A DNA stretch of 64,000 nucleotides from an uncultured Caryophanales bacterium (GTDB lineage Bacteria > Bacillota_I > Bacilli_A > Acholeplasmatales > Anaeroplasmataceae): NCBI GenBank assembly GCA_946405105.1, contig CAMJFY010000006.1:1-64000 (forward strand), in the 5' to 3' direction. Under the pieces are notes generated by a model. That model was not told where the DNA came from. It did not search any database and saw only the letters and a list, made by a program, of their open reading frames with translations. Position numbers and translations under genes: made by a program. Position 1 is the stretch's first letter, and each line of letters opens with the position of its first letter. Shown in pieces: positions 44,997-64,000 of this stretch.

Positions 44997-45017
44997 AATA
45001 AAAGGAGGCATGATAAA

Positions 45018-46349: not shown

Positions 46350-46386
46350 AAAAACATATCACGAAAATGTGATATGTTTTTTATTT
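46345..46386. terminator. Bidirectional terminator
   Basis: A 12-base perfect stem (46351-46362 with 46369-46380) lies between convergent genes. It has A-run on the left and T-run on the right, so it can terminate in both directions. Confidence 0.85.
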
Positions 46387-46387
46387 A

Positions 46388-47014
46388 TTATTCAGCGTCT
46401 TTCTTTTCAAGTACTACAATAGTAGGCATAGTAATGAAAGTAGCTAATGCTGAGAAGATTGCAAATACAATTAGAATAATACCGAAGATAACAAATCTAG
46501 CATCCATGCTGATAACTGGATCATTACCTAGCATTAAAGCTCCTAAAATAATTGCAACTGCACCAATAACGATTGATACAACTCCTGAAATAACTGCAGA
46601 TTTTACATTCTTCTTAATGATTCCAAATACGATAGTTAAAATACCATCTACAGCAATAATGGAACCAGCAACAACTAATACATAAGGAACAAATCCTAAT
46701 AAAATAGAAATTAATTCAGCTCCTAAATATTTTTCTGCTACAAAGAAGATACCAGCAGCTAATGTAATTGTTGCGATAGCAGCAATAGCACCAAAGCTCT
46801 TATCACCCTTAGAAATAATTGCAGCAACTAAAGCAAGAATAATTACTAATGCGGCAACAACTAATAGGGCAACACCAATAGTAATTGAGATTCCTTCATA
46901 AGCCTTAAGCTTGTCTTCGCCCTTAACAGCACCAGCAACGATACATAGGATACCAACAATTAGAAGCACTAACGCAGAAACCCACTTACTAATATTCTTT
47001 TTTACAAATTCCAT
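46388..47014 (-). CDS. DUF308-like small membrane protein
   Basis: A 208-residue hydrophobic protein with six predicted helices in three pairs, rich in Ala, Ile, Val and Gly. The pattern of repeated helix-turn units (FVPYVLVVAGSIIAVDGILTIVFG and SIVIGAVAIILGALML) resembles DUF308/HdeD-type membrane proteins, whose function is poorly known. AAGGAGAATAAA precedes the ATG on the minus strand. The leader has a palindrome TGTGATT-A-AATCACA between the inferred start of transcription and the ribosome site. Confidence 0.65.
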   Translation of the reverse strand: MEFVKKNISKWVSALVLLIVGILCIVAGAVKGEDKLKAYEGISITIGVALLVVAALVIILALVAAIISKGDKSFGAIAAIATITLAAGIFFVAEKYLGAELISILLGFVPYVLVVAGSIIAVDGILTIVFGIIKKNVKSAVISGVVSIVIGAVAIILGALMLGNDPVISMDARFVIFGIILIVFAIFSALATFITMPTIVVLEKKDAE

Positions 47015-47028
47015 TTTATTCTCCTTCC

Positions 47029-47043
47029 TGTGATTAAATCACA
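47029..47043. promoter_or_regulatory. Palindrome in the leader of the DUF308-like gene
   Basis: TGTGATT (47029-47035) and AATCACA (47037-47043) are perfect arms around one A. It lies just after the inferred transcription start of the minus-strand gene. The half-site TGTGA is also found in the inverted repeat ahead of gdhA. Confidence 0.45.
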
Positions 47044-47053
47044 ATCCTTGATT

Positions 47054-47062
47054 ATTATATCA
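47054..47062 (-). promoter_or_regulatory. Extended -10 promoter of the DUF308-like gene
   Basis: On the minus strand TGATATAAT gives an extended -10 (TATAAT 47059-47054). No clear -35 is seen. Confidence 0.45.
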
Positions 47063-47063
47063 C

Positions 47064-47095
47064 AAAAAAAGGAAATATTAAATTATAATATTTCC
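47064..47095 (-). terminator. Terminator of the U32 gene, overlapping its stop
   Basis: On the minus strand GGAAATATT (47095-47087) pairs with AATATTTCC (47079-47071), followed by seven T (A-run 47064-47070). The stop codon of the U32 gene (47083-47085) lies in the loop. Confidence 0.8.
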
Positions 47096-49284: not shown

Positions 49285-49359
49285 AATATCACCAACGAAA
49301 TTTTAACACAATTTCACTTAATAATAAAGTGACTAAAACTTAAATAAATTGAAAAAGTA

Positions 49360-49368
49360 TGATATAAT
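49360..49368 (+). promoter_or_regulatory. Extended -10 promoter of the 49386-54050 operon
   Basis: TGATATAAT gives an extended -10 (TATAAT 49363-49368); TTAAAT at 49340-49345 is a weak -35 at 17 bases. Confidence 0.5.
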
Positions 49369-49385
49369 TAGTTTGGTGAATTTTT

Positions 49386-50246
49386 ATGAAGCAAAAGAAG
49401 GATAGGTTTAAGGATTATATTAAAAAATACCTAATCAATAATAATGAAGAATTTAAAACATTATTATCTTATAAAAATTTAAAGAAGAATAATCAATCAT
49501 ATAAATATTTAACAAATAAGATATATTCATTAAGATTTATCCTTGATCCCAAATATGTGGATAAGATACTTTGTGATCAATTCACTGAAGCATATAGAGT
49601 CGAGGATTTCGAAATATGCTATGATGTATTAACCTATATTTATAAATATTATTTCTTTGAAATAGAATTAAGATATGCTGATTTCCCAGAAAAGCTATAT
49701 CGTAAATTTATGGTTCCTTTTAGAAATGATATGCAGGAGCTAATAACATCTATTATTGTTTTAATTAGAGCTAGTGGTAATCATTTAACTAATATTACAT
49801 TAGATAATATGGAATTAATCACAGGTGCTGAAAAGGTAGATGGATTATTAGAATTCAAAGATAGTGTAGATTATGCATCTAAATATCCTACATATTATCT
49901 ATTAGAAAAAAAATCAGGTAAGCTATATTATGATTATGCTGATGGATATGAATTCTCATTAGTGGCTAAAAAGCCAGTACCACTAGATGATAATTTATGC
50001 CAAAGCAATTTATTATTATTAGATTCAACTGGTTATGGTATATATGAGGATAATAGATTAATATTAAATGAATATTTAAGTCAGCCTAAGGCTTATAATA
50101 ATTATGAAAGAAAGCTAGTAAAGGATATGATTCCTTTTAATTTTGAAGAGGCTGATGAAGATAGTTTAATTTTAAAATTTGAATCAGAATTTAAAAGAAT
50201 TAGCCAAATGTATTCATTTGATAATACAGATGGTGAGGTGCATTAA
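49386..50246 (+). CDS. Protein of unknown function, first gene of a protease operon
   Basis: A 286-residue cytoplasmic protein I do not recognise. It begins with many lysines (KQKKDRFKDYIKKYL) and has no membrane segment or signal peptide. The middle is helical (CYDVLTYIYKYYFFEIELRYADF) and the later part contains strands with charged loops. TTTGGTGAAT at 49372-49381 precedes the ATG. The M6 lipoprotein gene starts one base after its stop, so it belongs to a four-gene run with two extracellular proteases. A role in their regulation or assembly is only a guess. Confidence 0.55.
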   Translation: MKQKKDRFKDYIKKYLINNNEEFKTLLSYKNLKKNNQSYKYLTNKIYSLRFILDPKYVDKILCDQFTEAYRVEDFEICYDVLTYIYKYYFFEIELRYADFPEKLYRKFMVPFRNDMQELITSIIVLIRASGNHLTNITLDNMELITGAEKVDGLLEFKDSVDYASKYPTYYLLEKKSGKLYYDYADGYEFSLVAKKPVPLDDNLCQSNLLLLDSTGYGIYEDNRLILNEYLSQPKAYNNYERKLVKDMIPFNFEEADEDSLILKFESEFKRISQMYSFDNTDGEVH

Positions 50247-50247
50247 A

Positions 50248-51921
50248 ATGAAAAAGAAGTTTGTTTTTATTTTTTTAGCATTGGCTTTAATACCAATATT
50301 AGCGTCATGTACATATATTAGATCATTAATGAATTTGGCAGCTAATAAAAAGGAATATCCAAATAAGCCAATAACTGTTAATTATTATGTAGATGAAGAA
50401 ATTTATAAAACTGAAACAACTAACAAGAGAAAAGAATTCACATATCCAGATAATCCATCAAAGGATGAATTAAATTTTGGTGGCTGGACATATAAAGAAT
50501 CATATCAAACATTAGATCCTGAAGATTTTTTATATGATGATGTAGATTCAATAGATTTATATGCATATTTCTCTAAGGGGACACACTTTAGTGATAATTT
50601 AGCATATAATGGACCACAAATATCTAAGGGTGTATTACCTTCATTTGGCTCACCCAAGGTATTAGTAGTACCAGTTGATCTAGGTGGAAAAACAACAAGC
50701 GCTATGATTGATAATATTGAAAAAGCATTTTCTGGTGATCCAGAAGAACTAGGATATGAATCAGTAACAAGTTATTATCAAAAATCAAGTAAAGGTAAAT
50801 TGAATTTATCATTTGAGGTTGCTGATACATGGTTTAGACCTAGTAAAAATGCATCATATTATAAAGATTATAATGCTTCAACTGATAAATATAATGAAGC
50901 AGGATCAGGATTAATATTACATGAATTTTTAGAAGAAAATAATTCAAAATATGATTTTAGTGATTATGATTATGATGGTGATGGATATATCGATTCAGTA
51001 TGGATGATATATAATGTTCCACAAAATTATGATAATACTGTTTTTTATTGGGCATATGTAACAATGACACTTAATAATTCTAAGAAATATGATAATGTGT
51101 ATGCTAGATATTATGGCTTTGCAAGCTATTATTTCATGTTTGAAAAGGAATATGAAACACCACAAAGACAACTAGAATTATATGATATGACAAATATCAA
51201 TATTGATGCTCATACATATATTCATGAAACAGGACATTTATTAGGCCTTGATGATTATTATGATTCAGATGCATCTAAGGGTCCAGCTGGTGGTATTTAT
51301 ACTGCAGGTATGATGGATGCAAACCGTGGTGATTTATCATCAATTGATAAATTATTATTAGGTTGGATAGATTCATATGTTATTTATACTAATAGTAACA
51401 AAACAATTACTATTAATTCATTTGCAAGCTCAAATGATGTGATATTAGTCTCTAGGGTAAAGCCTTCATCAATATATTCTGAATATTTCTTAATTGATTT
51501 ATATAATACTGAGGGCTTCGTATCTCAGGATAATGAAATAGAAGAGCCTAGTGATATAATAAAAGCTGACGCTATGGTTCATGGAAAAACATATAGAAAT
51601 TATGGTTTAAGAATATTACATATTGATGCATCATTAACTAATGTATATGAGGGTCAAACATATGATGAGCCAGTAAAATTTGCATATAATAATTCAAATA
51701 CTAAAAAGCTATTTGTAGATACAGTTTTAAATAATTCATCATATGCAACTCAAAAAATTAATGATATAAATAAGAGATTAATGAATTATTTTGGATTATA
51801 TAGTTTAACAGGAAATTATACTTTAAATTATAAAATGACAAATAATACTAATATTTTCTTTGGTATTACAATCAACAGCATTTCAAAGGATAGTGCGACA
51901 ATAACATTTAATTATAATTAG
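50248..51921 (+). CDS. M6-like metalloprotease lipoprotein
   Basis: A 557-residue surface lipoprotein. The signal ends with lipobox LASC near residue 18. An InlB-B-repeat-like module follows (about 35-110, with GGWT), then a zinc metalloprotease domain. The zinc motif is HETGHLLGLDD with ligands His326 and His330 and catalytic Glu327; the acidic YDSDASKGP loop follows. The M6 (immune inhibitor A) group is the best fit. The ATG at 50248 follows GAGGTG; a longer frame from 50179 overlaps the preceding gene. It starts one base after that gene. Confidence 0.85.
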   Translation: MKKKFVFIFLALALIPILASCTYIRSLMNLAANKKEYPNKPITVNYYVDEEIYKTETTNKRKEFTYPDNPSKDELNFGGWTYKESYQTLDPEDFLYDDVDSIDLYAYFSKGTHFSDNLAYNGPQISKGVLPSFGSPKVLVVPVDLGGKTTSAMIDNIEKAFSGDPEELGYESVTSYYQKSSKGKLNLSFEVADTWFRPSKNASYYKDYNASTDKYNEAGSGLILHEFLEENNSKYDFSDYDYDGDGYIDSVWMIYNVPQNYDNTVFYWAYVTMTLNNSKKYDNVYARYYGFASYYFMFEKEYETPQRQLELYDMTNINIDAHTYIHETGHLLGLDDYYDSDASKGPAGGIYTAGMMDANRGDLSSIDKLLLGWIDSYVIYTNSNKTITINSFASSNDVILVSRVKPSSIYSEYFLIDLYNTEGFVSQDNEIEEPSDIIKADAMVHGKTYRNYGLRILHIDASLTNVYEGQTYDEPVKFAYNNSNTKKLFVDTVLNNSSYATQKINDINKRLMNYFGLYSLTGNYTLNYKMTNNTNIFFGITINSISKDSATITFNYN

Positions 51922-51929
51922 AGGTTTTT

Positions 51930-53603
51930 ATGAAGTTTAAAAGATTTGTCTCATTACTATTATTATCAGTGTTTTTATTATTTGCCACTACATCTTGTAA
52001 AAGTGGTGACAAAATAAGTGTTAAATCAGAAAAAACACCATTTGTTAATTATAGTACAGATTATCAAATGAAAACTGAATATATGAATACATATTTCATA
52101 GATGGTGGTGAAACAAGATATGTTGATGCGACAAATTTTATGAAAGCATTAAAAGGCTTTTATATGACATCATATATTAGAAAAACATCAATGCTATTTT
52201 CAAATAATCTATCATTCTATTGTTTTGTAAATACAGGTAAGAGTGTTACTAAAACAAGTGTAACATTTAGCTGGGATGATAATACAATTTCTGTAAGTGA
52301 TAGCTTATTTTTCAATTTAATTAATATGTCTAGTACTACAAATTATTCTAGATTATTAAATGAAAAAGATGTAGAAAAGACTGATGAGAAAACATTAGTT
52401 TTTGATTTAGATAAATATGGATATGATATATATTATAAAAATGGTAAATGTTTAGTTCCTTTTAGTATAATGAATATTATTTTCTGTTCAAATGATTATT
52501 ATAATATTTATTATGATGGAACAAAATATTTTGGTGTTACATATGATATTTCATCATATGATAGAGAATCAATTATTAGATTAAAAACTTGTAATCTTAA
52601 TAATAAGGCCCAAACAGAAGAATTAAGATTAGAAACATATAATTGTTTAAGATTTGTATTAGATTATTATTATGGTTTAAAGCAATATAAAGGAATTGAT
52701 GATATTGAAGCTGACCTAGCTCCATATAAAGATGATATGTTATCATTAGATCCGGAAGTTAATAAGCAAGCATATTATAGTTATTTCATTAATCATTTAG
52801 ATGAATTACATACAAGAATCGGATCTTATTCATTCTATTATGATCCAACAGCAATGACTGACAATTGGGATACTGAAAAAACTAGTGAATCAAGAAGAAA
52901 ATATACACAGGTAGAAACTCAATTAAAAGAATTATCTAGCTCATGTTATTCTGGTGAAAATACATATAGAATAAGTGGTAATACGGCAGTTATTTATTTA
53001 AAGAATTTTACTACAGGAACTGATGAACAAACATCTGGCTCTGAAGCATATAAATATGATTCATATGAATTTGTTAAATATGCCTTAGATAGAATAGCTA
53101 CTGAAGGAAGTAGTGTTACAAAGGTTGTCCTAGATTTAAGCCAAAATGGCGGTGGAAATATGGGAGCCCTAATGAGAGTATTAGGATTCTTATCAAATAA
53201 TTCTATAAAATATTATAATTATAATTATTTATTTCAAAATTCTGTATCAGCATTATATGATGTTGATATAGATAATGATGGTGATTTTACAGATAATGAT
53301 GCGTATACACAATATAATTGGTATATATTATCAAGCTATAATACATTTAGTGCTGCCAACAGCTTTGTGGCAATGTCAAAATCTCTAGGAGCAACTATTA
53401 TTGGTCAAAAGAGCGGTGGTGGAATGTGTTCTGTTTTACCGATTATTTTACCAGACCAAACAACAATAGAGATTAGCTCAAATAATGCACAAATGGCCGA
53501 ATTAAATGGCGAATTTAGAATGATAGAGGGCGGAATAGAGCCTGATATTAGTATTGAATATGAAAAATTTTATGATATTAATTATTTAAATTCAATTTTA
53601 TAG
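51930..53603 (+). CDS. S41-family serine protease lipoprotein
   Basis: A 557-residue lipoprotein with lipobox TTSC near residue 23. The N-terminal 230 residues have no recognised family. The C-terminal half is an S41 tail-specific protease domain: VVLDLSQNGGGNMGALM, the nucleophile Ser474 in NTFSAANSF, and GATIIGQKSGGG. No PDZ domain is seen, which makes it closer to the short S41 proteins than to CtpA. TAGAGG at 51921-51926 is the ribosome site. It lies nine bases after the M6 gene and is followed 15 bases later by a UPF0158 gene. Confidence 0.85.
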   Translation: MKFKRFVSLLLLSVFLLFATTSCKSGDKISVKSEKTPFVNYSTDYQMKTEYMNTYFIDGGETRYVDATNFMKALKGFYMTSYIRKTSMLFSNNLSFYCFVNTGKSVTKTSVTFSWDDNTISVSDSLFFNLINMSSTTNYSRLLNEKDVEKTDEKTLVFDLDKYGYDIYYKNGKCLVPFSIMNIIFCSNDYYNIYYDGTKYFGVTYDISSYDRESIIRLKTCNLNNKAQTEELRLETYNCLRFVLDYYYGLKQYKGIDDIEADLAPYKDDMLSLDPEVNKQAYYSYFINHLDELHTRIGSYSFYYDPTAMTDNWDTEKTSESRRKYTQVETQLKELSSSCYSGENTYRISGNTAVIYLKNFTTGTDEQTSGSEAYKYDSYEFVKYALDRIATEGSSVTKVVLDLSQNGGGNMGALMRVLGFLSNNSIKYYNYNYLFQNSVSALYDVDIDNDGDFTDNDAYTQYNWYILSSYNTFSAANSFVAMSKSLGATIIGQKSGGGMCSVLPIILPDQTTIEISSNNAQMAELNGEFRMIEGGIEPDISIEYEKFYDINYLNSIL

Positions 53604-53618
53604 TTTAGAGGTGAGATT

Positions 53619-54050
53619 ATGGCTGTTAAGCTTTCAGTTGTATTAGAAGGATTAAAGTGGGTTTGTGGACACGATACAGTCTATGTAAATATTGAAAAGA
53701 ATACATTAATAAATGTTGCAGATCCAACAATGTCTGATATTCCATCTGATCATGTTTTAGATGAATTAGAAGAACATAAAAATGAATATATCGAGCTTCC
53801 TTCATATAAGCAAATTGACACTAAAAAAATAGTTAAAGATTATATTAATAGCTTTGATGAAGGTGCAGTAAAGCAAAGATTAGAAAAAGCATTATCTGGA
53901 CCATTCTGGTATCGTAGATTTTTAAAGCAAATTGAAATATTTGAATATAAAGATAATTGGTATAATTTTAGATCTAAATCCTTAAAGCAAATAGCTATTA
54001 ATTTCTTAAATCTAAAAAGAATTGAATATGTAGATGATATCGCATATTAA
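53619..54050 (+). CDS. UPF0158 family protein
   Basis: A 143-residue cytoplasmic protein. The blocks ELPSYKQIDTKKIVKDYINSF, LSGPFWYRRFLKQIE and NWYNFRSKSLKQIAINFL match UPF0158, a family of unknown function. GAGGTGAG precedes the ATG. It ends the protease run and is followed by a strong terminator. Confidence 0.8.
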   Translation: MAVKLSVVLEGLKWVCGHDTVYVNIEKNTLINVADPTMSDIPSDHVLDELEEHKNEYIELPSYKQIDTKKIVKDYINSFDEGAVKQRLEKALSGPFWYRRFLKQIEIFEYKDNWYNFRSKSLKQIAINFLNLKRIEYVDDIAY

Positions 54051-54055
54051 TAATG

Positions 54056-54080
54056 AGTGCTACTTCGGTAGCACTTTTTG
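54056..54080 (+). terminator. Terminator of the protease operon
   Basis: AGTGCTAC (54056-54063), tetraloop TTCG, GTAGCACT (54068-54075), then TTTTT. Confidence 0.92.
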
Positions 54081-54093
54081 TTTTACTAATCAT

Positions 54094-54112
54094 AGATTAT
54101 ATAATATAATCT
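54094..54112. promoter_or_regulatory. Palindrome over the -10 of the GNAT gene
   Basis: AGATTATAT (54094-54102) and ATATAATCT (54104-54112) are perfect arms around one A, with TATAAT (54105-54110) inside. It may be an operator or simple AT-rich symmetry. Confidence 0.4.
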
Positions 54113-54132
54113 AATTAAAGAGGGTGCGTATC

Positions 54133-54852
54133 TTGAAATTGAATAAGTATGAATTACTAAACAGAAGTTATTCATTCATTTCATTTGAGAATTTAGCCTT
54201 AACGATTGCGGTAAAAAATATAGGGGATAATACTATACATTTCATTACCTTCAATGATGTTAAAAATGTCATTGGTGAGGTTAATAATACTGATAAGACT
54301 ATTACAGAGGCTAAGGTAGATGAAAATGGCAACAAATTAATAGAGCTAATTGTTGATAATAAGGCGCTAAAGCTTGAATATACAAATTATTCAGTATGCT
54401 CAATAAAAGTATTTGAAAATTATTTTGCCTTATACGAGGATGAATTAATTGAGATGAGTGGAGAGTGGGAGAAGGAATTCTCATCACATGGTTATTTACA
54501 AAATGAAACTAAAGATTTAGAAAATCAAAGATTAATCATCGCAATGGATACTGAAACTAATAAGCTTGTTGGATATTTATATGGTCATAAATATAAAACA
54601 AGAAATGCTTCAGCAACTATTCCTGAAGATTCTAAAGTTTTTGAGCTAGAAGAAATTTTTGTCAAAAAGGAATATAGATCTAGAGGTATTGGTACAACTA
54701 TGTTTAATGCCATAGAGGATAAGATGAAGCAAGAAGGAGTATCATATATAACCCTAACAACTAAAACAAAGGATTATAAAAAGATATTTAATTTCTATAT
54801 CGATGAGCTAGGAATGAGCTTTTGGCATGCAAGATTATTTAAGCAAATTTAG
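54133..54852 (+). CDS. GNAT-family N-acetyltransferase
   Basis: A 239-residue protein with a C-terminal GNAT domain (about 95-235). Acetyl-CoA-binding motif A is ELEEIFVKKEYRSRGIGTTMF. The first 90 residues form an additional N-terminal region of unknown role. The start is probably TTG at 54133, since GAGGGTG (54120-54126) lies six bases ahead; a GTG at 54124 overlaps that site. The acceptor substrate cannot be predicted. A palindrome covers the -10 element of its promoter. The gene lies directly upstream of the lipid synthesis cluster but is separated by 137 bases and another promoter. Confidence 0.8.
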   Translation: MKLNKYELLNRSYSFISFENLALTIAVKNIGDNTIHFITFNDVKNVIGEVNNTDKTITEAKVDENGNKLIELIVDNKALKLEYTNYSVCSIKVFENYFALYEDELIEMSGEWEKEFSSHGYLQNETKDLENQRLIIAMDTETNKLVGYLYGHKYKTRNASATIPEDSKVFELEEIFVKKEYRSRGIGTTMFNAIEDKMKQEGVSYITLTTKTKDYKKIFNFYIDELGMSFWHARLFKQI

Positions 54853-54855
54853 TGC

Positions 54856-54876
54856 GTAATAATATACTATTATTAC
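54856..54876. promoter_or_regulatory. 21-bp palindrome ahead of the lipid cluster promoter
   Basis: GTAATAATA (54856-54864) and TATTATTAC (54868-54876) are perfect nine-base arms around TAC. It lies 15 bases upstream of the acpP -35. There is no T-run, so it is not a simple terminator, and a regulatory site for the cluster is more likely. The regulator is unknown. Confidence 0.5.
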
Positions 54877-54891
54877 AAAAGCTTATTATTC

Positions 54892-54920
54892 TTTACAACT
54901 TGATTTTTATTTGATATAAT
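54892..54920 (+). promoter_or_regulatory. Promoter of the fatty acid synthesis cluster
   Basis: -35 TTTACA (54892-54897), 17-base spacer ending in TGA, -10 TATAAT (54915-54920). Transcription would start near 54927. Confidence 0.65.
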
Positions 54921-54989
54921 GATACTGGTTTTATTTTGGCATTTATGCTGAAAATAAAAGATTTTTATGTAATTAGAGAGGGAAAAATA

Positions 54990-55232
54990 ATGAAAGACAC
55001 AGAAATCAAACAACAATTAAAAGACTTTTTTGTTAATGAATTAGGCGTAGATGCTAATGAATTACAATATGACACAATTTTATTCAATGAAGGAATTGGT
55101 CTAGACTCAATCGACTCAATCGAATTAGTTTCATTCATCGATGAAACATTTGGTGTTCAAACATCAGGAATTGATAGAGAGAACTTCAAGAACATTGATA
55201 CATTAGCAGCTTATATCGTTGCCCATATGTAA
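54990..55232 (+). CDS. acpP: Acyl carrier protein
   Basis: An 80-residue acidic four-helix carrier protein. The phosphopantetheine serine is Ser40 in GIGLDSIDSIELV; the motif is a DS-I type, not the DSL of most ACPs. The C-terminus ends with the usual hydrophobic helix (IDTLAAYIVAHM). The ATG at 54990 follows AGAGAGGG; a longer frame from 54936 would include the leader. It is the first gene of the cluster and is separated from the rest by a terminator-like hairpin, so it may be made in excess. Confidence 0.9.
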   Translation: MKDTEIKQQLKDFFVNELGVDANELQYDTILFNEGIGLDSIDSIELVSFIDETFGVQTSGIDRENFKNIDTLAAYIVAHM

Positions 55233-55240
55233 TTCTTATG

Positions 55241-55275
55241 ATTGCAAACTTGTATAAGCTTGCAATTATTTTTTA
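55241..55275 (+). terminator. Internal terminator/attenuator after acpP
   Basis: An 11-base stem with one G-U pair, 55241-55251 with 55256-55266, loop GTAT, then a T-rich tract. No promoter was seen between it and the next gene, so partial read-through is likely. Confidence 0.7.
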
Positions 55276-55304
55276 TAAATGAAATATTAGGAGTGATTAT
55301 TTAT

Positions 55305-57674
55305 ATGACAGATATTAAAAATCGTTGCGTTATTACTGGTTTAGGTATGATTAATGCTATCGGTAATAATGTTGATGAGTGCTTCACAAACGCTAAGAAT
55401 AGCGTTTCAGGTATTGAAGTAACTACATCAGTTGATACAAAGGATTGTTATGCAAATCTTGGTGCTGAGGTTAAGCATTTTGACCTAAGCACAATTAAGA
55501 ATACTGAAAATATGGATAGAGTATCTAAGTTTGCAATTAAAGCAGCAACAGAAGCTATGGCAGATGCAAAGCTAGAAGCATTCAATGATAATCCAAGAGT
55601 TTCAGTAATCATGGGTTCATGTGTTGGTGGTGCAGTATCTATTGCACATTATTATGAGAACAACCATGATGCTTCAGACATTGAAAAGATGCCTATTTCA
55701 AGAATTGCAAATGATGTTGCAGAATATTTCAAGGCTGGTGGTGTTGTTACAAATATCGCTAACGCTTGTGCTGCAGGTACAATTTCAATTGCTTATGCTT
55801 GTGATTTAATTAGATCAAACAAGGCTGATATAGTTTTAGCTGGTGGTACTGATTCATTCGCATCAGTTCCATATGCAGGATTCTTAGCATTACATGCTCT
55901 AGATTCTAATCCATGCTCACCATTTAACCATTGTACAGGTATTACACTTGGTGAAGGTTCTGGTGTAGTAGTAGTTGAATCATATGAGCACGCTATGGCA
56001 AGAAAGGCTAAAATTTATTGTGAGGTATTAGGCTCTGGTGTATCAAGTGATGCTCACCATATTACAGCTCCAAGAGAAGATGGCGAAGGACAAATGAACG
56101 CTATTAATTGGGCTATTAAGACATCTGGTATTAAGAAATCAGAAATTGGCTATATCAATGCTCATGGAACTGGTACAGCTAAGAATGATAATGCAGAATT
56201 CTTATCATTACATACAATCTTTGATGGTGAGAATAATGATTTATCTGTTTCATCAACAAAGGCAATGGTTGGTCACTGCTTAGGTGCTGCAGGAGCAATT
56301 GAAGCAGTATTTTCAATTAAGTGCTTAACTGAAAATGTAATCCTTCCTACTTTAAGATATACTGCTGAGGATTTAGAAAATCTAAAGGAAAAGGCAGGAA
56401 AAATTGATTTTATTCCAAATAAATCAAGAGAAAAGAAGCTAGAAACAGTAATGTCTAATTCATTCGCATTTGGTGGAAACAATGCATCAATTGTTTTCTC
56501 AAAGAATGAAGGAAACGTTAATGTTAAAACTGATAAGAAGAAAAAGATTGCCATTACAGGTTTAGGAATTGTTACTCCACTTGGAAATGGTATTGATAAT
56601 TATATTGAAAAGATTAATACATTCAAGCCAGAATCAACTTCAATTGCATCAGTAGTTGAAAGAAAAGATTATGATGAATTTGGTTTAGGTATGACATTTA
56701 GAAAGCATGATAATCTATCTAGACTTCAGGTTGTATCAGGAATGAATGCATTAAAGGATGCAAACTTTACTATTAATGATCAAACTGCAACAGAAATTGG
56801 TATCGTAGTTGGTACTAGTGAGGGCGCACTTGGAACATGCTTAAATTTCCAAGATAATATTACTGAAAAGGGTAACTGCAATGGTTCAGCATTCAATTTC
56901 CCTAACACAGTATACAACGCAGCTGGTGGATACTTATCAATTTGTTCAGGAATTAAAGGATATAACGTTACAGTAACAAATGGTGCTCAATCAGGTTTAG
57001 CATCTGTTGCTTACGCAATGGATATTTTAAGAAAGAATACTGAAAAAGCAATCCTAGCTACTGGTAGTGATGAAAATATCGAAATCATTAATACAATTTA
57101 TTCACAAGAAAATAAAATTGCTAGCACAGTAAATGAAGCATATTCTAAGAAGGATGGATTCACATTATCTGATGGATCTGTTTCAGTATTATTAGAGGAT
57201 GCTGATTATGCAGCAAGCCATAATGCACATATCTATGCTAAGGTTACAGGTTATGGTATGGCACATAAGAGTGTTGCATTCAACACAATTAAGGATTCTA
57301 ATGTAGCTTTAACTGAAGCTATCAACAGTGCATTAATGGATGCAGAAATTAAAGCATCTGATATTGATGCTGTAATCGGATTTGCTAATGGTGATAAGAC
57401 AATTGATGCAGAAGAGATCTTAGGTCTTAAAGGCTCATTTGATTTATCTAAGCTTCCAATTATTAACATTAAGAATAATATCGGTGAAGCAAGAAGTGCA
57501 GCTGCTACATTAGCTGTATCTCATGCTGCATTATTATTATCAAATAAATTACAAAAGACAAGCTGCTATGTAGCTAATAAGAAAACTGAAATTGAAGCTT
57601 CTAAGCTTAACAAGATTTTAGTTGTATCTTATGGCTTTGGTGGAAGCTATACAGCAGTAGTAGTTGAGAAATAA
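55305..57674 (+). CDS. Fused ketosynthase pair: active KS plus degenerate KS (CLF-like)
   Basis: A 789-residue protein of two tandem thiolase-fold ketosynthase units, where FabF is about 410. The first unit (1-400) keeps the triad: Cys155 in NACAAG, His287 in NAHGTGT and His324 in MVGHCLGAAG, with Lys319. The second unit (413-789) starts again with KIAITGLGIVTPLGNG but has Ala561 for Cys (NGAQSG), Asn695 for the first His (FANGDKT) and Glu728 for the second (NIGEAR); Lys723 remains. The second half is therefore inactive for condensation, like the chain-length factor partner of KS-alpha in type II polyketide synthases. GGAGTGATT precedes the ATG. Confidence 0.92.
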   Translation: MTDIKNRCVITGLGMINAIGNNVDECFTNAKNSVSGIEVTTSVDTKDCYANLGAEVKHFDLSTIKNTENMDRVSKFAIKAATEAMADAKLEAFNDNPRVSVIMGSCVGGAVSIAHYYENNHDASDIEKMPISRIANDVAEYFKAGGVVTNIANACAAGTISIAYACDLIRSNKADIVLAGGTDSFASVPYAGFLALHALDSNPCSPFNHCTGITLGEGSGVVVVESYEHAMARKAKIYCEVLGSGVSSDAHHITAPREDGEGQMNAINWAIKTSGIKKSEIGYINAHGTGTAKNDNAEFLSLHTIFDGENNDLSVSSTKAMVGHCLGAAGAIEAVFSIKCLTENVILPTLRYTAEDLENLKEKAGKIDFIPNKSREKKLETVMSNSFAFGGNNASIVFSKNEGNVNVKTDKKKKIAITGLGIVTPLGNGIDNYIEKINTFKPESTSIASVVERKDYDEFGLGMTFRKHDNLSRLQVVSGMNALKDANFTINDQTATEIGIVVGTSEGALGTCLNFQDNITEKGNCNGSAFNFPNTVYNAAGGYLSICSGIKGYNVTVTNGAQSGLASVAYAMDILRKNTEKAILATGSDENIEIINTIYSQENKIASTVNEAYSKKDGFTLSDGSVSVLLEDADYAASHNAHIYAKVTGYGMAHKSVAFNTIKDSNVALTEAINSALMDAEIKASDIDAVIGFANGDKTIDAEEILGLKGSFDLSKLPIINIKNNIGEARSAAATLAVSHAALLLSNKLQKTSCYVANKKTEIEASKLNKILVVSYGFGGSYTAVVVEK

Positions 57675-57688
57675 TATCGGAGGAAAAT

Positions 57689-58420
57689 ATGAAGGTTGCA
57701 ATTGTTACAGGTGCTTCAAGAGGAATCGGTAGAGCATGTGCTATTAAATTAGCTCAAGTTGGTTATACTGTAGTTATTAATTATGCTTCAAATGACGCAA
57801 AAGCTCAAGAAGTATTAGATTTAATCAAAGCTAATGGCGGCGATGGTATGCTATATAAGGCAAATGTTAGTAATTATGATGAAGTAAAACAAATGGTTAA
57901 AACTGTTTTTGATACTTATAAGCAAATTGATTTATTAGTAAATAATGCTGGTATAGTAAGAGATGAACCATTAATTGGTTTAAATAAAGAAAATCTAGAT
58001 ATGTGCTTTGATTTAAATGTAAAAGGATATTTCTATTGTGCTAAAGAAGTAGCTTTAAAAATGGCTAGAAAGAGATCAGGCGTTATTGTAAATATGTCTA
58101 GTGTATCTGGTACATATTCACTTCCTGGTCAAACTGTTTATAGTGCTACAAAGGGTGCAGTAAATCAATTTACAAAAACTCTTGCAAAAGAAATGGGCTC
58201 TCGTGGACTAAGAGTTAACGCAGTTGCTCCTGGATTTATTGAAACTGATATGATTGAAGCTGTAGATGAAGCAACAATGGCTAAATATTTAGAGGCTATT
58301 CCTCTAAGACGTCGTGGAAAAGTTGAAGAAGTTGCAAATCTTGTAGCTTTCTTAGCTTCAGATGATGCTTCATATATAACAGGACAAATTATTACATTAG
58401 ATGGAGGTTTATCTCTATAA
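57689..58420 (+). CDS. fabG: 3-oxoacyl-ACP reductase
   Basis: A 243-residue short-chain dehydrogenase that reduces 3-oxoacyl-ACP with NADPH. The cofactor motif GASRGIGRACA, NNAG, the catalytic serine in NMSSVSG, the YSATKG Tyr/Lys pair and the C-terminal GQIITLDGGLSL are the standard FabG set. CGGAGGAAA precedes the ATG. The stop overlaps the fabZ start by one base. Confidence 0.95.
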   Translation: MKVAIVTGASRGIGRACAIKLAQVGYTVVINYASNDAKAQEVLDLIKANGGDGMLYKANVSNYDEVKQMVKTVFDTYKQIDLLVNNAGIVRDEPLIGLNKENLDMCFDLNVKGYFYCAKEVALKMARKRSGVIVNMSSVSGTYSLPGQTVYSATKGAVNQFTKTLAKEMGSRGLRVNAVAPGFIETDMIEAVDEATMAKYLEAIPLRRRGKVEEVANLVAFLASDDASYITGQIITLDGGLSL

Positions 58421-58863
58421 TGCTAAATATTAATGATATTAACAAAAGAATTAAACAACGCCCACCATTCCAAATGATTGAGCGTGTTATAGATTGGACT
58501 CCAGGTGAGTCAGCAACTGGAATAAAAAATGTATGTATTAATGAACCATATTTCATGGGACATTTTCCAGATGCACCTATTATGCCTGGTGTATTAATTA
58601 TTGAGTCATGTGCTCAACTTTGCTCACTAGTATTCGATACTGAGGGTGGAAACCCTGATATCATTTATGTTTTATTAAAGGTAAATGATTTCAAATTTGT
58701 TAAGCCAGTTATTCCTGGAGATCAATTAGTAATAACTGTAACTAAGACAAAGATTATGGGACCTCTTGCAGTATTTGATGCAGTAGTAAAGGTAAACGAT
58801 GAAATCCGTTCTAAGGGTACAATGACATTTACAATGGTTGAAAAGGCTAAAATTTACGGATAA
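58420..58863 (+). CDS. fabZ: 3-hydroxyacyl-ACP dehydratase (FabZ)
   Basis: A 147-residue hot-dog-fold dehydratase. The active site has His48 in GHFPDAPIMPGVL and Glu62 in LIIESCAQL. The block RPPFQMIERV at the start is typical for FabZ. Translation is coupled to fabG through the one-base overlap of stop and start. It would remove water from 3-hydroxyacyl-ACP made by FabG. No isomerase signature is apparent, but an added FabA-like activity cannot be excluded. Confidence 0.95.
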   Translation: MLNINDINKRIKQRPPFQMIERVIDWTPGESATGIKNVCINEPYFMGHFPDAPIMPGVLIIESCAQLCSLVFDTEGGNPDIIYVLLKVNDFKFVKPVIPGDQLVITVTKTKIMGPLAVFDAVVKVNDEIRSKGTMTFTMVEKAKIYG

Positions 58864-58882
58864 AAATTAGGATGTGCTTGAT

Positions 58883-59611
58883 ATGAAGAAGATATTAGTA
58901 TTAAATGGTAGCCCTAAAAAAGAAAAATCATCAACATTAAATGTGACTAAAGCATTTGTTGATGGTATGCTATCAACAAATAAATATGAAACTGAATACG
59001 TTAATTTATCTGATTTAAATATCAAGCCATGCACAGGATGTCTATCTTGCTGGGGAAGAACAGAGGGTGAATGTGTTATTAAAAATGATGACATATTACC
59101 AATTAAGGAAAAGATTTTAAATGCGGATGTATTTATTGAATCATTCCCATTGTTTTTCTTTGGTATGCCAGGAACAATGAAGGTATTTACAGATAGAATG
59201 TTATCAATGATGAAAACATATAGAGGACAAAAATCACCTGAAAATGGTGAATCATTCCATGGTATTAGATATGAAAAGAATCCTCAATTTGTTGTTATTA
59301 CATCATGTGCATATACTGAATTTGGTCCAGTATATGAGCCATTAATTAGTCAATATGACTGTATTTGTGGAAAAGGCAATTATACAATGCTTTTTTCACC
59401 ACAATTAAAGACATTAATAGATTTAAAAAACGAATCTAAAATTAATAAATATTTACAAAAATTTTATGATGCTGGCGTTGAATTCGCCAATAATGGTTTT
59501 CTATCTAATGAAACATATGAATTATTAAAGAAACCACCTTTCTCAGAAGGAGCATATAAAATTTTCCTAGATAACTTCTGGAGAGAAGAGAAAGAAAAGG
59601 GAGGATGCTAA
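58883..59611 (+). CDS. Flavodoxin-fold iron-sulfur flavoprotein
   Basis: A 242-residue protein of the NADPH-dependent FMN reductase / iron-sulfur flavoprotein group. The FMN phosphate loop is LNGSPKKEKSST (residues 6-17). A compact cysteine motif C-x2-C-x2-C-x7-C (PCTGCLSCWGRTEGEC, about 52-67) is as in iron-sulfur flavoproteins with a [4Fe-4S] cluster. The flavin-stacking block ESFPLFFFGMPGTMKVFTDR follows. The ATG at 58883 is chosen over the GTG at 58874 because AGGATG lies at 58869-58874. It lies inside the lipid cluster, between fabZ and a second ACP gene, which hints at a redox role in the pathway, unproven. Confidence 0.85.
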   Translation: MKKILVLNGSPKKEKSSTLNVTKAFVDGMLSTNKYETEYVNLSDLNIKPCTGCLSCWGRTEGECVIKNDDILPIKEKILNADVFIESFPLFFFGMPGTMKVFTDRMLSMMKTYRGQKSPENGESFHGIRYEKNPQFVVITSCAYTEFGPVYEPLISQYDCICGKGNYTMLFSPQLKTLIDLKNESKINKYLQKFYDAGVEFANNGFLSNETYELLKKPPFSEGAYKIFLDNFWREEKEKGGC

Positions 59612-59613
59612 TT

Positions 59614-59844
59614 ATGTTTGAAGAAATCAAAAGATTATTAGTAGAATGTGCTCATGTTGATGAGGATGAGGTTACATTAGAAGCAAACCTTAAAAAGGAT
59701 TTAGGAATCGATAGCTTATACGCTGTTGAGTTAACACTTGAGCTTGAAGAACATTATGGTATTGCCATTGACTGGGAAGAAATGCAAGAGGTATATACTG
59801 TAGGAGATGTTGTTAAGCTAATTGAAGGAAAGGTACGTGGATAA
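59614..59844 (+). CDS. Second acyl carrier protein
   Basis: A 76-residue carrier protein with the phosphopantetheine serine in LGIDSLYAVELTLELE. Low similarity to the first ACP of this cluster beyond the fold pattern suggests different duties. The ATG at 59614 is nine bases after GGGAGG; an in-frame ATG at 59605 would sit directly on that site. It begins two bases after the flavoprotein stop and is followed by accB. Confidence 0.9.
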   Translation: MFEEIKRLLVECAHVDEDEVTLEANLKKDLGIDSLYAVELTLELEEHYGIAIDWEEMQEVYTVGDVVKLIEGKVRG

Positions 59845-59845
59845 T

Positions 59846-60268
59846 ATGGATTTTGAAAATTTAAAGAAGGCTATTCAGATTTTTAAAGAATCAGGATTAT
59901 CTTATATGGAATTTGAACAGGATGGTATGAGAGTAGCATTTGATAATAGAGTTTCTCAAAATACAGGTAATGTTGTTGTTGCTGCAGCTCAAAATGCTGA
60001 AGAAGTAAAATCGGAAAATTCAGTAGACAATAATTATTATGTTACATCACCATTAGTTGGTACATTCCATCAAGCACAGGCTGAAGGTAGCAAGCCTTTT
60101 GTTCAAGTTGGTCAAAAGGTTAAGAAAGGCGATAAGCTTTGTATTATAGAGGCAATGAAGGTTATGAACGAAATCACTGCTGATAAATCAGGAGAAATAA
60201 CTGATATTTTAGTTACTGAGGGTCAGATGGTTGAATTTGGTCAAAAGCTATTTGTTATAGGTGAATAA
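59846..60268 (+). CDS. accB: Biotin carboxyl carrier protein of acetyl-CoA carboxylase
   Basis: A 140-residue protein with an N-terminal helical region (NLKKAIQIFKESGLSYMEFEQDG), a linker, and a C-terminal biotinyl domain. The biotin lysine is in IEAMKVMNEI. It carries carboxybiotin between AccC and the AccA-AccD transferase. The ATG at 59846 comes one base after the ACP stop; a longer frame from 59822 overlaps that gene. Confidence 0.96.
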   Translation: MDFENLKKAIQIFKESGLSYMEFEQDGMRVAFDNRVSQNTGNVVVAAAQNAEEVKSENSVDNNYYVTSPLVGTFHQAQAEGSKPFVQVGQKVKKGDKLCIIEAMKVMNEITADKSGEITDILVTEGQMVEFGQKLFVIGE

Positions 60269-60269
60269 T

Positions 60270-61637
60270 ATGTTTAAAAAGATTTTAATTGCTAATCGTG
60301 GTGAGATTGCAGTACGTATTATTCGTGCCTGCAAGGAAATGGGAATTAAATCTGTTGCTGTATATTCAGAGGCTGATAAAAAAGCTCTACATACTGAGCT
60401 TGCAACAGAGACAGTTTGCATTGGTAAAGCACCATCTAGCGAATCATATCTAAATATGGAATCAATTATAAGTGCTGCGCTAGTTACAGGATGTGATGCT
60501 ATACATCCTGGTTTTGGCTTTTTATCTGAAAATCCACAATTTGCTAGAATGGTAGAAAAATGTGGATTAACATTTATTGGTCCAAACGCTGATGTTATGG
60601 AAAAAATGGGTAATAAGGCAGAAGCTATTCAAAGCATGAAGAATGCTGGTGTACCTATTGTACCAGGCTCTTATAAGGCTGTAACTATGGAAGAAGGACA
60701 CAAGATTGCTGATGAAATTGGCTATCCTGTTTTAATTAAGGCTTCTATGGGTGGAGGCGGAAAAGGAATCAAGAGAGTAAATAATACTAAAGATTTTGAT
60801 TCTTTATATGCTGAAGCTAAAGAAGAAGCTATTAAATTCTTTGCAAATGATGAAATTTATGTAGAGAAATTCATTGTTGCTCCAAAGCACATTGAGGTTC
60901 AGGTAATGTGTGATAAATTTGGTAATGTAATCCACTTATTTGAAAGAAATTGCTCAATGCAAAGAAGAAACCAAAAAATGCTAGAGGAGGCACCATGCCA
61001 ATCTATCAGCAAGGAATTAAAACAAAAGCTTTATGATTCTGCAATTAAAGCATGTAAGGCTGTTAATTATGATAGCGTAGGTACTATTGAATTCTTAGTT
61101 GATAAGGATGAAAATTATTATTTCATTGAAATGAACACAAGAATTCAGGTTGAGCATGCTGTAACAGAGGCTATAACAAATATTGATATTGTTAAGAATA
61201 TGATTAAGATTGCTTATGGTCTAAAGCTTGCTTACAAGCAAGAAGATGTTAAGCAATTAGGATATGCATTAGAATGTAGAATTACTGCAGAGGATGTAGA
61301 AAATGATTTTAGACCAAGTCCAGGTAAAATTAATTTCATGCATACTCCAGGTGGTATGGGTGTAAGAATCGATACTGCAGTTTATACAGGATATGAGATA
61401 TCACCATATTATGATTCTATGATTTTAAAGATTGTTGTTTCAGGACAATCAAGACTTGAATGTATAAGAAAGATGAGAGCTGCATTAGAGGAATTAATTA
61501 TTGAAGGTGTTAAAACTACAATTGAATTCCATTATGTATTGCTACATAATACTTCATTCATTTTAGGAAATTATGATACAACATGTGTAGAAACATTCTT
61601 AAAGGAGGTATTTGAAAATGCAAAGCGCCTTCGATAA
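60270..61637 (+). CDS. accC: Biotin carboxylase subunit of acetyl-CoA carboxylase
   Basis: A 455-residue ATP-grasp enzyme. The start KKILIANRGEIAVRIIRACKE is typical, the ATP-binding glycine loop is MGGGGKGIKRV, and the biotin and bicarbonate-binding blocks KHIEVQVMCDKFGN and EMNTRIQVEHAVTE are present. ATAGGTGAA at 60257-60265 is the ribosome site. It overlaps the accD start by 20 bases. Confidence 0.97.
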   Translation: MFKKILIANRGEIAVRIIRACKEMGIKSVAVYSEADKKALHTELATETVCIGKAPSSESYLNMESIISAALVTGCDAIHPGFGFLSENPQFARMVEKCGLTFIGPNADVMEKMGNKAEAIQSMKNAGVPIVPGSYKAVTMEEGHKIADEIGYPVLIKASMGGGGKGIKRVNNTKDFDSLYAEAKEEAIKFFANDEIYVEKFIVAPKHIEVQVMCDKFGNVIHLFERNCSMQRRNQKMLEEAPCQSISKELKQKLYDSAIKACKAVNYDSVGTIEFLVDKDENYYFIEMNTRIQVEHAVTEAITNIDIVKNMIKIAYGLKLAYKQEDVKQLGYALECRITAEDVENDFRPSPGKINFMHTPGGMGVRIDTAVYTGYEISPYYDSMILKIVVSGQSRLECIRKMRAALEELIIEGVKTTIEFHYVLLHNTSFILGNYDTTCVETFLKEVFENAKRLR

Positions 61638-62490
61638 AAGAAAAGAAGAATTAAAAGAATTTAGTGAAGCATTAGAAAAGCTTGATATTAGAAAAAAGGA
61701 TGAAACTGTTAAAAAGAGTGCTCCTGATGATCTAATGTGTAAGTGCGTAAAATGCGACAAAATATTATTAAAAGAAGAATTATTAAATAATTTATGTGTA
61801 TGTCCATATTGTAATAATCATCTTAGATTAAAGGCTAAGGATAGATTAAATCAAATTATGGATAACGGATATAAAATTATCTTTAATAATATAGATGAAA
61901 AATATTTAGATTTCCCTGATTATGAAAAAAAGCTTAATGAAGCAAAAGAACAGACAGGAAATGATGAATCAATAGTATGTGCTGAAGGTAAAATTAACGG
62001 AATTAAAGCTTTAGTTGGTGTTATGGATTCATATTTTATGATGGGTTCTATGGGAAGTGTATGTGGTGAAAAGGTTACATTAATGGCTGAATTAGCTATT
62101 AAGAAGAAGCTTCCACTTATTTTATTTACTTGTTCTGGTGGAGCTAGAATGCAAGAGGGAATTATTTCTTTAATGCAAATGGCAAAAACTAGTCAAGCAA
62201 TCGGTAAATTAAGAGAAAAGGGCTTATATATTGCAGTATTAACTGACCCAACAACTGGTGGTGTATCTGCATCATTTGCTGCCCTAGCTGATATTACATT
62301 AGCTGAGCCTAATGCCTTAATTGGATTTGCTGGTAAGAGAGTTATTGAAAGAACAATAAAAGAAGTATTACCAAAAGAATTCCAAACTGCTGAATTTAGC
62401 TTAGAAAAAGGATATATAGATAAAATTGTTAATAGAAAGGATTTAAAGGAGACTTTAGCTACGCTACTAAAGCTTCATAGGTATAACTAA
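61618..62490 (+). CDS. accD: Acetyl-CoA carboxylase carboxyltransferase beta subunit
   Basis: A 290-residue crotonase-fold subunit with an N-terminal C4 zinc ribbon (CKCVKCDKILLKEELLNNLC, then CPYC). The carboxyltransferase core holds the oxyanion blocks FTCSGGARMQEGI and DPTTGGVSASFA. The ATG at 61618 lies eight bases after AAAGGAGGT and is in frame with a TTG at 61612 that is too close to that site. Coupled with accC. Confidence 0.96.
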   Translation: MQSAFDKRKEELKEFSEALEKLDIRKKDETVKKSAPDDLMCKCVKCDKILLKEELLNNLCVCPYCNNHLRLKAKDRLNQIMDNGYKIIFNNIDEKYLDFPDYEKKLNEAKEQTGNDESIVCAEGKINGIKALVGVMDSYFMMGSMGSVCGEKVTLMAELAIKKKLPLILFTCSGGARMQEGIISLMQMAKTSQAIGKLREKGLYIAVLTDPTTGGVSASFAALADITLAEPNALIGFAGKRVIERTIKEVLPKEFQTAEFSLEKGYIDKIVNRKDLKETLATLLKLHRYN

Positions 62491-62491
62491 G

Positions 62492-63412
62492 ATGAGTAAG
62501 CTAGAAGAAAATCAAATTAAAATCCAAAATCTTGAACAAGAAATTTTATCATTAGATCCATCAGATTCTGAATTTAAAGCTAAAACAAAAGAATTAAATA
62601 AGCTTAAAAAGGAGACATATTCTAATTTAAGCCACTGGGATAGAGTTTTAATTGCTAGATCTGAATCTAGATTAAAGGCTACGGCCCTAGTTAATAAGCT
62701 ATTTACTGATTTTATTGAATTACATGGTGATCAGCTTTTTGCTGATGATCAATCAATTTTAGCTGGTATTGCCCTACTTGGTGATATGCCAGTTACAGTA
62801 TTAGCACAGGCAAAAGGAACTAATCTTACTGAATCATTAAAAAGAAATTTCGGTATGACATCTCCTGAAGGCTTTAGAAAAACATTAAGATTAGCTCGCG
62901 AGGCTGAAAAATTCAATAGACCAATTATCACTATTGTTGATACATCTGGTGCATATCCTGGAAAGGGTGCAGAAGAAAGAGGTCAATCACGTGCTATAGC
63001 TGAAAACCTAATGGAATTTTCAAAGCTAAGAGTTCCTGTAGTTGCTATAGTATTAAGTGAAGGTGGTTCAGGAGGAGCTTTAGCTCTAACTGTATCTGAT
63101 TACATCTTTATGTTTGAAAATGCTATTTATTCAGTATTATCTCCAGAAGGATTCTCTTCAATATTATTTAAAAATACTAAAACTGCAGAAGAATCTGCAG
63201 AAATCATGAAGCTAACATCTCATGATTTATTAGAAATGAATATTATTGATGAAATGGTTAAAGAGCCACTTGGTGGTATTAAAGCACCAACTGATGATTT
63301 TGTTAATGACTTAAGAGAAAAATTAATTAAGAAAATTAACGAATTAATGAAAGAATCTAAAGATAATTTAATTGAAAATAGATACAATAAGTTTAGAAAA
63401 ATAGGCTTATAA
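62492..63412 (+). CDS. accA: Acetyl-CoA carboxylase carboxyltransferase alpha subunit
   Basis: A 306-residue partner of AccD that forms malonyl-CoA. Blocks include the N-terminal helix-rich part (LEQEILSLDPSDSEF), FADDQSILAGIALLG, MTSPEGFRKTLRLA, DTSGAYPGKGAEERGQ and LSEGGSGGALALTV. It starts one base after the accD stop. The full accBCDA set is thus in one operon. Confidence 0.97.
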   Translation: MSKLEENQIKIQNLEQEILSLDPSDSEFKAKTKELNKLKKETYSNLSHWDRVLIARSESRLKATALVNKLFTDFIELHGDQLFADDQSILAGIALLGDMPVTVLAQAKGTNLTESLKRNFGMTSPEGFRKTLRLAREAEKFNRPIITIVDTSGAYPGKGAEERGQSRAIAENLMEFSKLRVPVVAIVLSEGGSGGALALTVSDYIFMFENAIYSVLSPEGFSSILFKNTKTAEESAEIMKLTSHDLLEMNIIDEMVKEPLGGIKAPTDDFVNDLREKLIKKINELMKESKDNLIENRYNKFRKIGL

Positions 63413-63427
63413 AATAGGAGTACAAAT

Positions 63428-64000
63428 ATGAAAATTGCTTTTTTATTTGCTGGTCAAGGTGCACAAGCAGTTGGAATGGGAAAAGATTTTTATGAAGAAT
63501 ATAACCTTGCAAAGGTTATTTATGATTCATTCCCAGAAATAAAAGAATTATGCTTTGAAGGACCTGCAGAAACATTAAATCAAACAGCATATGCTCAAAA
63601 GGCAATGCTATTAACATCATATACAATCGCTAAGGTATTAGAATCTAAAGGTATTACACCTGAATACGCTTGTGGTTTATCTTTAGGTGAATATAGTGCT
63701 CTAGCTTACGCAAATACTTGGAAGCTAGATGAAGCTATTGAAATTATTACTAATAGAGGAAATATTATGCAAAATGCCTTACCTCTTGGAACAACTAAAA
63801 TGGCTGCGGTTATTGGTTTAGATAGAGATACTATTTTAAATACAATTAAAAATGTTGATGGTATTTGTGAAATTGCAAATTACAACTGCCCTGGTCAAAT
63901 TGTTATTACAGGAGATAACAAGGGTGTAGATGCTGCAATGCCATTATTAACTGAAGCAGGAGCTAAAAGAGTATTACCTTTAAATGTTTCAGGTGCATTC
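63428..64000 (+). CDS. fabD: Malonyl-CoA:ACP transacylase, N-terminal part
   Basis: The first 191 residues of FabD, cut by the window end. The start MKIAFLFAGQGAQAVGMG and the nucleophile elbow GLSLGEYSAL (Ser85) are clear; the sequence stops at NVSGAF, just ahead of the position where the catalytic histidine normally follows. It loads malonyl groups onto an ACP for the ketosynthase. AGGAGTACAA is the ribosome site. A fabH or enoyl reductase gene may follow outside the window. Confidence 0.94.
   Translation, partial: MKIAFLFAGQGAQAVGMGKDFYEEYNLAKVIYDSFPEIKELCFEGPAETLNQTAYAQKAMLLTSYTIAKVLESKGITPEYACGLSLGEYSALAYANTWKLDEAIEIITNRGNIMQNALPLGTTKMAAVIGLDRDTILNTIKNVDGICEIANYNCPGQIVITGDNKGVDAAMPLLTEAGAKRVLPLNVSGAF

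Follow-up and report, generated by a model that had tools for sequence, protein, structure and literature searches.

In textbook type II FAS, elongation is carried out by homodimers of FabB or FabF, with FabH starting the chain. Pairs of a ketosynthase (KS) and a chain-length factor (CLF) work in other systems, and those of the actinorhodin and tetracenomycin polyketide synthases (PKSs) are established to prime themselves through malonyl decarboxylation (PMC12664062). The KS-CLF didomain itself is no novelty: PUFA synthases have one in PfaC, which belongs to a multidomain type I megasynthase and acts in late PUFA elongation (PMC12895367), and in the literature we searched, with most subscription papers outside the search, PUFA synthases were the only source of KS-CLF fusions. 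The CLF of the aryl polyene ApeO/ApeC pair is half-size, with a single thiolase fold domain (PMC8358021). Here we describe a KS-CLF didomain protein encoded among discrete fatty acid genes in a 64,000-nucleotide stretch of DNA from an uncultured Caryophanales bacterium, hereafter the window.

An active and a dead ketosynthase in one chain

The gene is a single stop-free frame with an ATG start preceded by AGGAG, and Pfam matches the ketoacyl-synthase N and C domains twice each on the 789-residue protein, in agreement with the two ketosynthase units that an earlier note on this DNA had read in the frame. Alignment with canonical FabFs showed C155, H287, K319 and H324 all present in unit 1, where the note had already placed Cys155, His287 and His324. 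In unit 2, A561 stands at the Cys, F693 at the equivalent of His287, K723 at the Lys and E728 at the second His. The note's Ala561, Lys723 and Glu728 therefore stand, but its Asn695 does not, as the first His aligns to Phe693, two residues earlier; the unit is dead either way. Intact Cys and His residues in this unit had been named as the finding that would speak against a dead partner, and both His positions are lost in the alignment. This confirms an active ketosynthase followed, in the same chain, by a second KS fold without the Cys and both His. The active half further carries AFGG as its gate loop and the motif HGTGT, while FabFs have GFGG and either HGTST or HGTAT.

The assignment of the gene to a fatty acid cluster also held, as it lies in an operon of 12 same-direction genes with short gaps or overlaps, encoding in order ACP, KS-CLF, FabG, FabZ, a flavoprotein, a second ACP, AccB, AccC, AccD, AccA, FabD and BirA (Table 1). 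The ACP, KS, KR, DH and MAT functions of a type II FAS are thus present as discrete proteins, along with malonyl-CoA supply. Using the dead half as query and one genome per species, we found 259 related loci, and over the best 80 of these the neighbours, in counts limited by contig ends, were FabG (70), the flavoprotein (65), FabZ (63), ACP (at least 54), FabD (38), a PlsC-like acyltransferase (34), AccD (27), AccA (26), a TetR-like regulator (17), a patatin-like protein (16) and PlsX (14). Between the first ACP gene and the KS-CLF gene, 55233-55304 holds an AT-rich hairpin followed by a T run, with a fold z-score of only -1.3, which could act as a partial terminator that raises the ACP1 message. 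A search of Rfam over 45000-64000 gave no match.

Table 1. Features of the operon (window positions, unless marked as contig positions)
Feature	Position	Strand	Evidence
Promoter-like site TTTACA-17-TATAAT, 11/12	54892..54920	+	Consensus scan; consensus match only
Acyl carrier protein 1	54990..55232 (likely start 54990; mechanical ORF from 54936)	+	Pfam PP-binding 1.7e-8; adjoins fusion in most loci
KS-CLF didomain protein, 789 aa	55305..57674	+	ORF, Pfam, alignment, AlphaFold2, tree, homologue columns
Active KS half, residues 1-405; C155, H287, K319, H324, gate F389	55305..56519	+	Alignment, tree, conservation columns
Dead CLF-like half, residues 411-789; A561, F693, K723, E728	56535..57671	+	Alignment, tree, conservation columns
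FabG-type 3-oxoacyl-ACP reductase	57689..58420	+	Pfam/NCBIfam; 70/80 loci
FabZ-type dehydratase	58420..58863	+	NF000582 131.8 bits, cut-off 113; 63/80 loci
Flavodoxin-fold FMN protein, Isf-type C-x2-C-x2-C-x7-C, candidate enoyl-ACP reductase	58874..59611	+	Domain, motif, fold matches
Acyl carrier protein 2	59605..59844	+	Pfam/NCBIfam
AccB, biotin carboxyl carrier protein	59822..60268	+	TIGR00531 127.5 bits, above cut-off
AccC, biotin carboxylase	60261..61637	+	TIGR00514 649 bits, above cut-off
AccD, carboxyltransferase beta	61612..62490	+	TIGR00515 338 bits, above cut-off
AccA, carboxyltransferase alpha	62492..63412	+	TIGR00513 343 bits, above cut-off
FabD-like malonyl transferase	63428..64000, continuing to contig base 64330	+	Translation; conserved beside cassette
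BirA-like gene	contig 64330-65019	+	Downstream of FabD
Strong terminator-like hairpin, after BirA	contig 65020-65045		Sequence scan

Conservation, fold and kinship of the two halves

When 60 related genomes were searched with the whole protein, the fusion turned up as a single frame in ~20 congeneric species (60-83% identity) and once in a sister genus. Likewise, among the best 80 of the 259 loci the halves nearly always form one open frame of ~785-830 aa, with shorter ones ending at contig edges, and the complete plasmid of Lachnospira eligens ATCC 27750 encodes a fusion of 64% identity. A false join is excluded by this recurrence of the single frame in the ~20 relatives, at nearly all the other loci and on the complete plasmid.

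Catalytic columns were compared over 76 full-length fused homologues. In unit 1, C155 and H287 occur in 76/76, and K319, H324 and F389 in 75/76, the remaining sequence having one X, so that the full Cys-His-His and Lys set of an active KS is kept. In unit 2 the Cys column holds A in 38, S in 12, P in 10, N in 7 and other residues including T, with Cys once; the first His column is F, L or M across the fusions, the second His is Glu (E728) in 76/76 beside the invariant Gly727 and Arg730, and Lys723 is kept in 63/76. The partner is thus a KS fold from which nucleophile and His pair have gone. The dead half of A. bactoclasticum (L061:1634-2773) has a Cys at the nucleophile column with the His pair lost, indicating that this column drifts freely.

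An assembly artefact or a decaying fabF duplicate could account for a second half that is dead and diverges faster, its mean column conservation being 0.63 against 0.76 for unit 1. However, the single frame recurs in isolates and in independent MAGs of several phyla, G727, E728 and R730 are invariant, and residues 521-560 of the dead half (GSAFxFPNTVYNAAGGYLSI...) are near-invariant, with a conservation of 0.88-0.89 (n=76 throughout). In ketosynthases the matching segment is the dimer interface, and in CLFs it helps to shape the tunnel of the partner. The sequences thus show strong constraint at the partner-facing segment, and a dead fold kept under such conservation points to a partner and not a relic. 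Furthermore, phylogeny sets the two halves in different ancient groups and not as recent duplicates. The chance of artefact or decay is accordingly negligible, conservation across the homologues having ruled it out; the sequencing error that the earlier note had allowed for does not explain a join that is intact in 76/76 full-length homologues.

AlphaFold2, run on 21 sequences, predicted one compact unit with a mean pLDDT of 83.4 and a pTM of 0.90. The best PDB match of the model was 6RIW, the PfaC KS-CLF didomain, over 913 columns with a TM of 0.76 by query length; single FabFs followed, each covering one half, with B. subtilis FabF at 39% identity in the structural match. This confident model, in which 6RIW is matched over both domains, supports the internal KS-CLF heterodimer that the earlier note had suggested looking for, and we infer that the two halves pack in this way.

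In a tree of 45 KS domains the active half clusters with PDB 9S5H chain B and the KS halves of fusions from Priestia, Pseudalkalibacillus and Streptomyces (98/93), and lies outside the separate clade formed by the FabFs (96/92); the dead halves have long branches, which makes their branching order less certain. The whole protein narrowly misses the curated cut-off of the FabF equivalog TIGR03150 (483.3 versus 493.75 bits). By sequence the dead half matches 9S5H chain C best, and the two have FPNTVxNA and the Glu at the second His in common. The tree, the HGTGT motif, the score below the cut-off and the chain C match all argue for a protein of the KS-CLF family over a duplicated FabF, and on this sequence evidence the active half counts as a KS-CLF-type KS and not as a modified FabF. 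The proposal that one chain joins a KS with a CLF-like dead KS is therefore borne out by predicted fold, tree and catalytic columns alike.

Far from being peculiar to the window's genome, the gene is old and widely shared; its named hosts include Anaeroplasma bactoclasticum ATCC 27112, Eubacterium, Lachnospiraceae, Ruminococcus, other Clostridia and Treponema. The window's genome itself belongs to the genus of A. bactoclasticum, since it has its GTDB genus in common with G018, in which the matches lie at the very positions seen in the A. bactoclasticum genome G062. A tree built from 78 fusions puts the Treponema copies in one clade, next to those of L. eligens and amid copies from Clostridia, and the Anaeroplasma copies in a second clade. 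A sample of 392 genomes from the GTDB phylum to which the window belongs (other phyla were sampled unevenly) showed the dead half in this genus only, a restriction consistent with gain by transfer, and the sequences make transfer of the cassette among gut anaerobes likely. The 627-kb plasmid of L. eligens ATCC 27750 (NC_012780) carries the cassette with FabD, AccD, the flavodoxin protein and PlsX, and ftsZ is on the same plasmid. Plasmid and phage collections yielded reference KSs, and no fusion copy was among the matches listed from the phage collection.

Sole ketosynthase status, initiation and enoyl reduction

In the window's genome the PF00109 profile matched only the two halves of the fusion, in keeping with the earlier suggestion that it replaces FabF in this lineage. 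The fusion is likewise the only KS in A. bactoclasticum and ~10 other Anaeroplasma and Clostridia genomes, and a whole-protein search of further Anaeroplasma relatives found the fusion only. The other cassette hosts tested, L. eligens relatives, Lachnospiraceae and Treponema among them, add a normal KS of 410-430 aa. Within the genus the type of FAS differs by species (G016, G023, G009 and G017): some have the fusion alone, some canonical FabF alone and some both, and in a few neither was detected.

FabH was found neither in the window's genome nor in its 96-100% complete relatives G006, G007, G014, G015 and G018, in searches where controls gave matches, and most sole-KS Clostridia lack it too; two sole-KS genomes, G081 and G086, and many two-KS genomes do have it. 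As the window's genome is 91% complete, one missing gene alone proves little, and the argument rests on the repeated absence across relatives. MadB-type initiation was rejected because a search for MadB did not find it. With neither enzyme found, initiation must come from elsewhere, and by analogy with PKSs the obvious candidate is the KS-CLF itself, which would decarboxylate malonyl-ACP. The same need for a starter source could be answered by a second half that acts as a KSQ-type malonyl-ACP decarboxylase and gives acetyl-ACP starters to the first half. In KSQ proteins the Cys is the main residue changed, and Gln replaces it there and in the actinorhodin CLF. However, over the 76 fusions both His are lost from the dead half (to F/L/M and the invariant Glu), and Gln lies one position past the Cys column in 66/76, not at the column itself, so the residues that would support decarboxylation are gone. 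We therefore rejected this role as very improbable.

For the last reductive step the operon offers its flavoprotein, in which C53, C56, C59 and C67 are invariant in 65 sequences as C-x2-C-x2-C-x7-C. A compact C-x2-C-x2-C-x5-7-C is the motif of iron-sulfur flavoproteins (Isf) (PMC3164229); the protein has both this motif and a flavodoxin-type fold, and cluster and FMN binding are predicted. Its nearest solved relative by sequence is FLR (7D38), a gut flavone ene-reductase (PMC7862272); by modelled fold, azoreductases and quinone reductases come first and FLR lower in the list. FabK-like genes are present in the window's genome, A. bactoclasticum and G015, and none was found in G006, G007, G014 or most sole-KS Clostridia. 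G014 has no FabI, as its only two SDR proteins are a classical YxxxK dehydrogenase and the FabG of the cassette. A search for FabV gave no match, though its control set was also silent. Its place in the operon, the lack of FabK and FabI in some hosts and its kinship with FLR, all indirect evidence, make the flavoprotein the best candidate enoyl-ACP reductase, a role for which the chances appear evenly balanced; in the window's genome and A. bactoclasticum it would be dispensable as a reductase, as both have FabK.

PlsX, which adjoins the cassette in 14 of the best 80 loci, is present in 13/13 genomes tested, and acyl-ACP can therefore feed phospholipid. Two PlsX genes occur in the window's genome (G000:C12:9967 and G000:C4:19998), with like pairs in other sole-KS genomes.

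We consider it likely that FabF and FabH have given way to a PKS-style KS-CLF didomain that probably primes itself. Like the KS-CLFs of type II PKSs, the KS half would make its own starter from malonyl-ACP by decarboxylation, and FabH would then be dispensable; the dead half would shape the tunnel and limit chain length, the Fe-S flavoprotein would reduce enoyl-ACP where FabK is missing, and acyl-ACP would exit via PlsX to phospholipid.

Sole-KS cells might, however, import their bulk fatty acids, the gate loop departs from that of FabF, and the KS half sits among natural-product KSs. The cassette could be a highly reducing type II PKS for a specialised acyl product, such as a polyene, a polyunsaturated or a lipid-linked chain, with bulk fatty acids made by a normal FAS or taken up from outside. 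Known polyene type II PKSs indeed have KS, CLF, ACP, FabG and FabZ as their minimal set, the KS half clusters with fusions from natural-product-like loci (Priestia, Pseudalkalibacillus and Streptomyces), and the occurrence of the cassette alongside a normal FabF in many Lachnospiraceae, Treponema and Ruminococcus genomes fits a specialised product. Nevertheless, Anaeroplasma and several Clostridia have no KS besides the fusion, the Anaeroplasma operon includes a complete acetyl-CoA carboxylase, FabD and BirA, PlsX adjoins the cassette in other lineages, and the reductase-like flavoprotein is a near-constant cassette member, and we regard a specialised PKS as unlikely.

Beyond replacement of FabF and FabH by the didomain, we tentatively raise the possibility, which we hold to be somewhat short of probable, of a new kind of bacterial discrete-enzyme FAS, in which a PKS-type, self-priming KS-CLF didomain performs initiation and all elongation in place of FabH, FabB and FabF, a Fe-S flavodoxin-type protein serves as enoyl-ACP reductase in place of FabI, FabK or FabV, and transfer has carried the system among gut Clostridia, Treponema and Anaeroplasma. 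In animal-gut bacteria, one cultured species among them, initiation and elongation alike appear to fall to a polyketide-style KS-CLF didomain. This makes it testable whether a CLF sets membrane acyl length, whether KS-CLF self-priming replaces FabH and whether a Fe-S flavoprotein acts as enoyl-ACP reductase, and it gives structural studies a small KS-CLF that is naturally a single chain.

Comparison with known systems

A KS-CLF didomain as the sole condensing enzyme of a discrete-enzyme FAS was not found in the literature searched (most subscription papers being outside it), and the fused gene cassette of gut Clostridia, Treponema and Anaeroplasma is apparently undescribed. The PfaC KS-CLF (6RIW) is alike in having an active KS and then a dead CLF in one chain, but identity is ~17%, and the present protein stands alone among single-domain type II FAS genes and not within the chain of a multidomain Pfa megasynthase. 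It also differs from the aryl polyene KS-CLF in having a full-length second half, which aligns to the entire KS profile.

FabF (KAS II) has the same fold, the Cys-His-His-Lys set and probably the same role, that of an elongating KS, but is a homodimer with two active sites, whereas here the active half lies outside the FabF clade and scores below the TIGR03150 cut-off. With the KS-alpha/CLF of type II PKSs (actinorhodin type; ishigamide Iga11/Iga12) the fusion has in common HG[TS]GT in the KS, a dead partner, a heterodimeric logic (predicted for the fusion) and probably acetate priming with no need of a separate initiation KS. There, however, the two are separate proteins with no ACC operon, and the CLF has its His changed to Asp or Arg and another motif at the Cys site.

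Chains B and C of PDB 9S5H/9S5I are likewise a KS and a dead KS, of which B groups with the active half and C is the best match of the dead half, but these are two unfused chains. The fused KS-KS proteins of Priestia megaterium pBM500 (L152:10016-12445), Pseudalkalibacillus hwajinpoensis (L153:9989-12283) and Streptomyces sp. NBC_00536 (L155:5998-8361) have the same order of halves, an AFGGNN-type gate loop and a dead second half. They differ in their identity of ~30% and in their setting, plasmid clusters with MFS, thioesterase or FabH-like genes, and are apparently undescribed single-chain KS-CLFs of natural-product-like loci.
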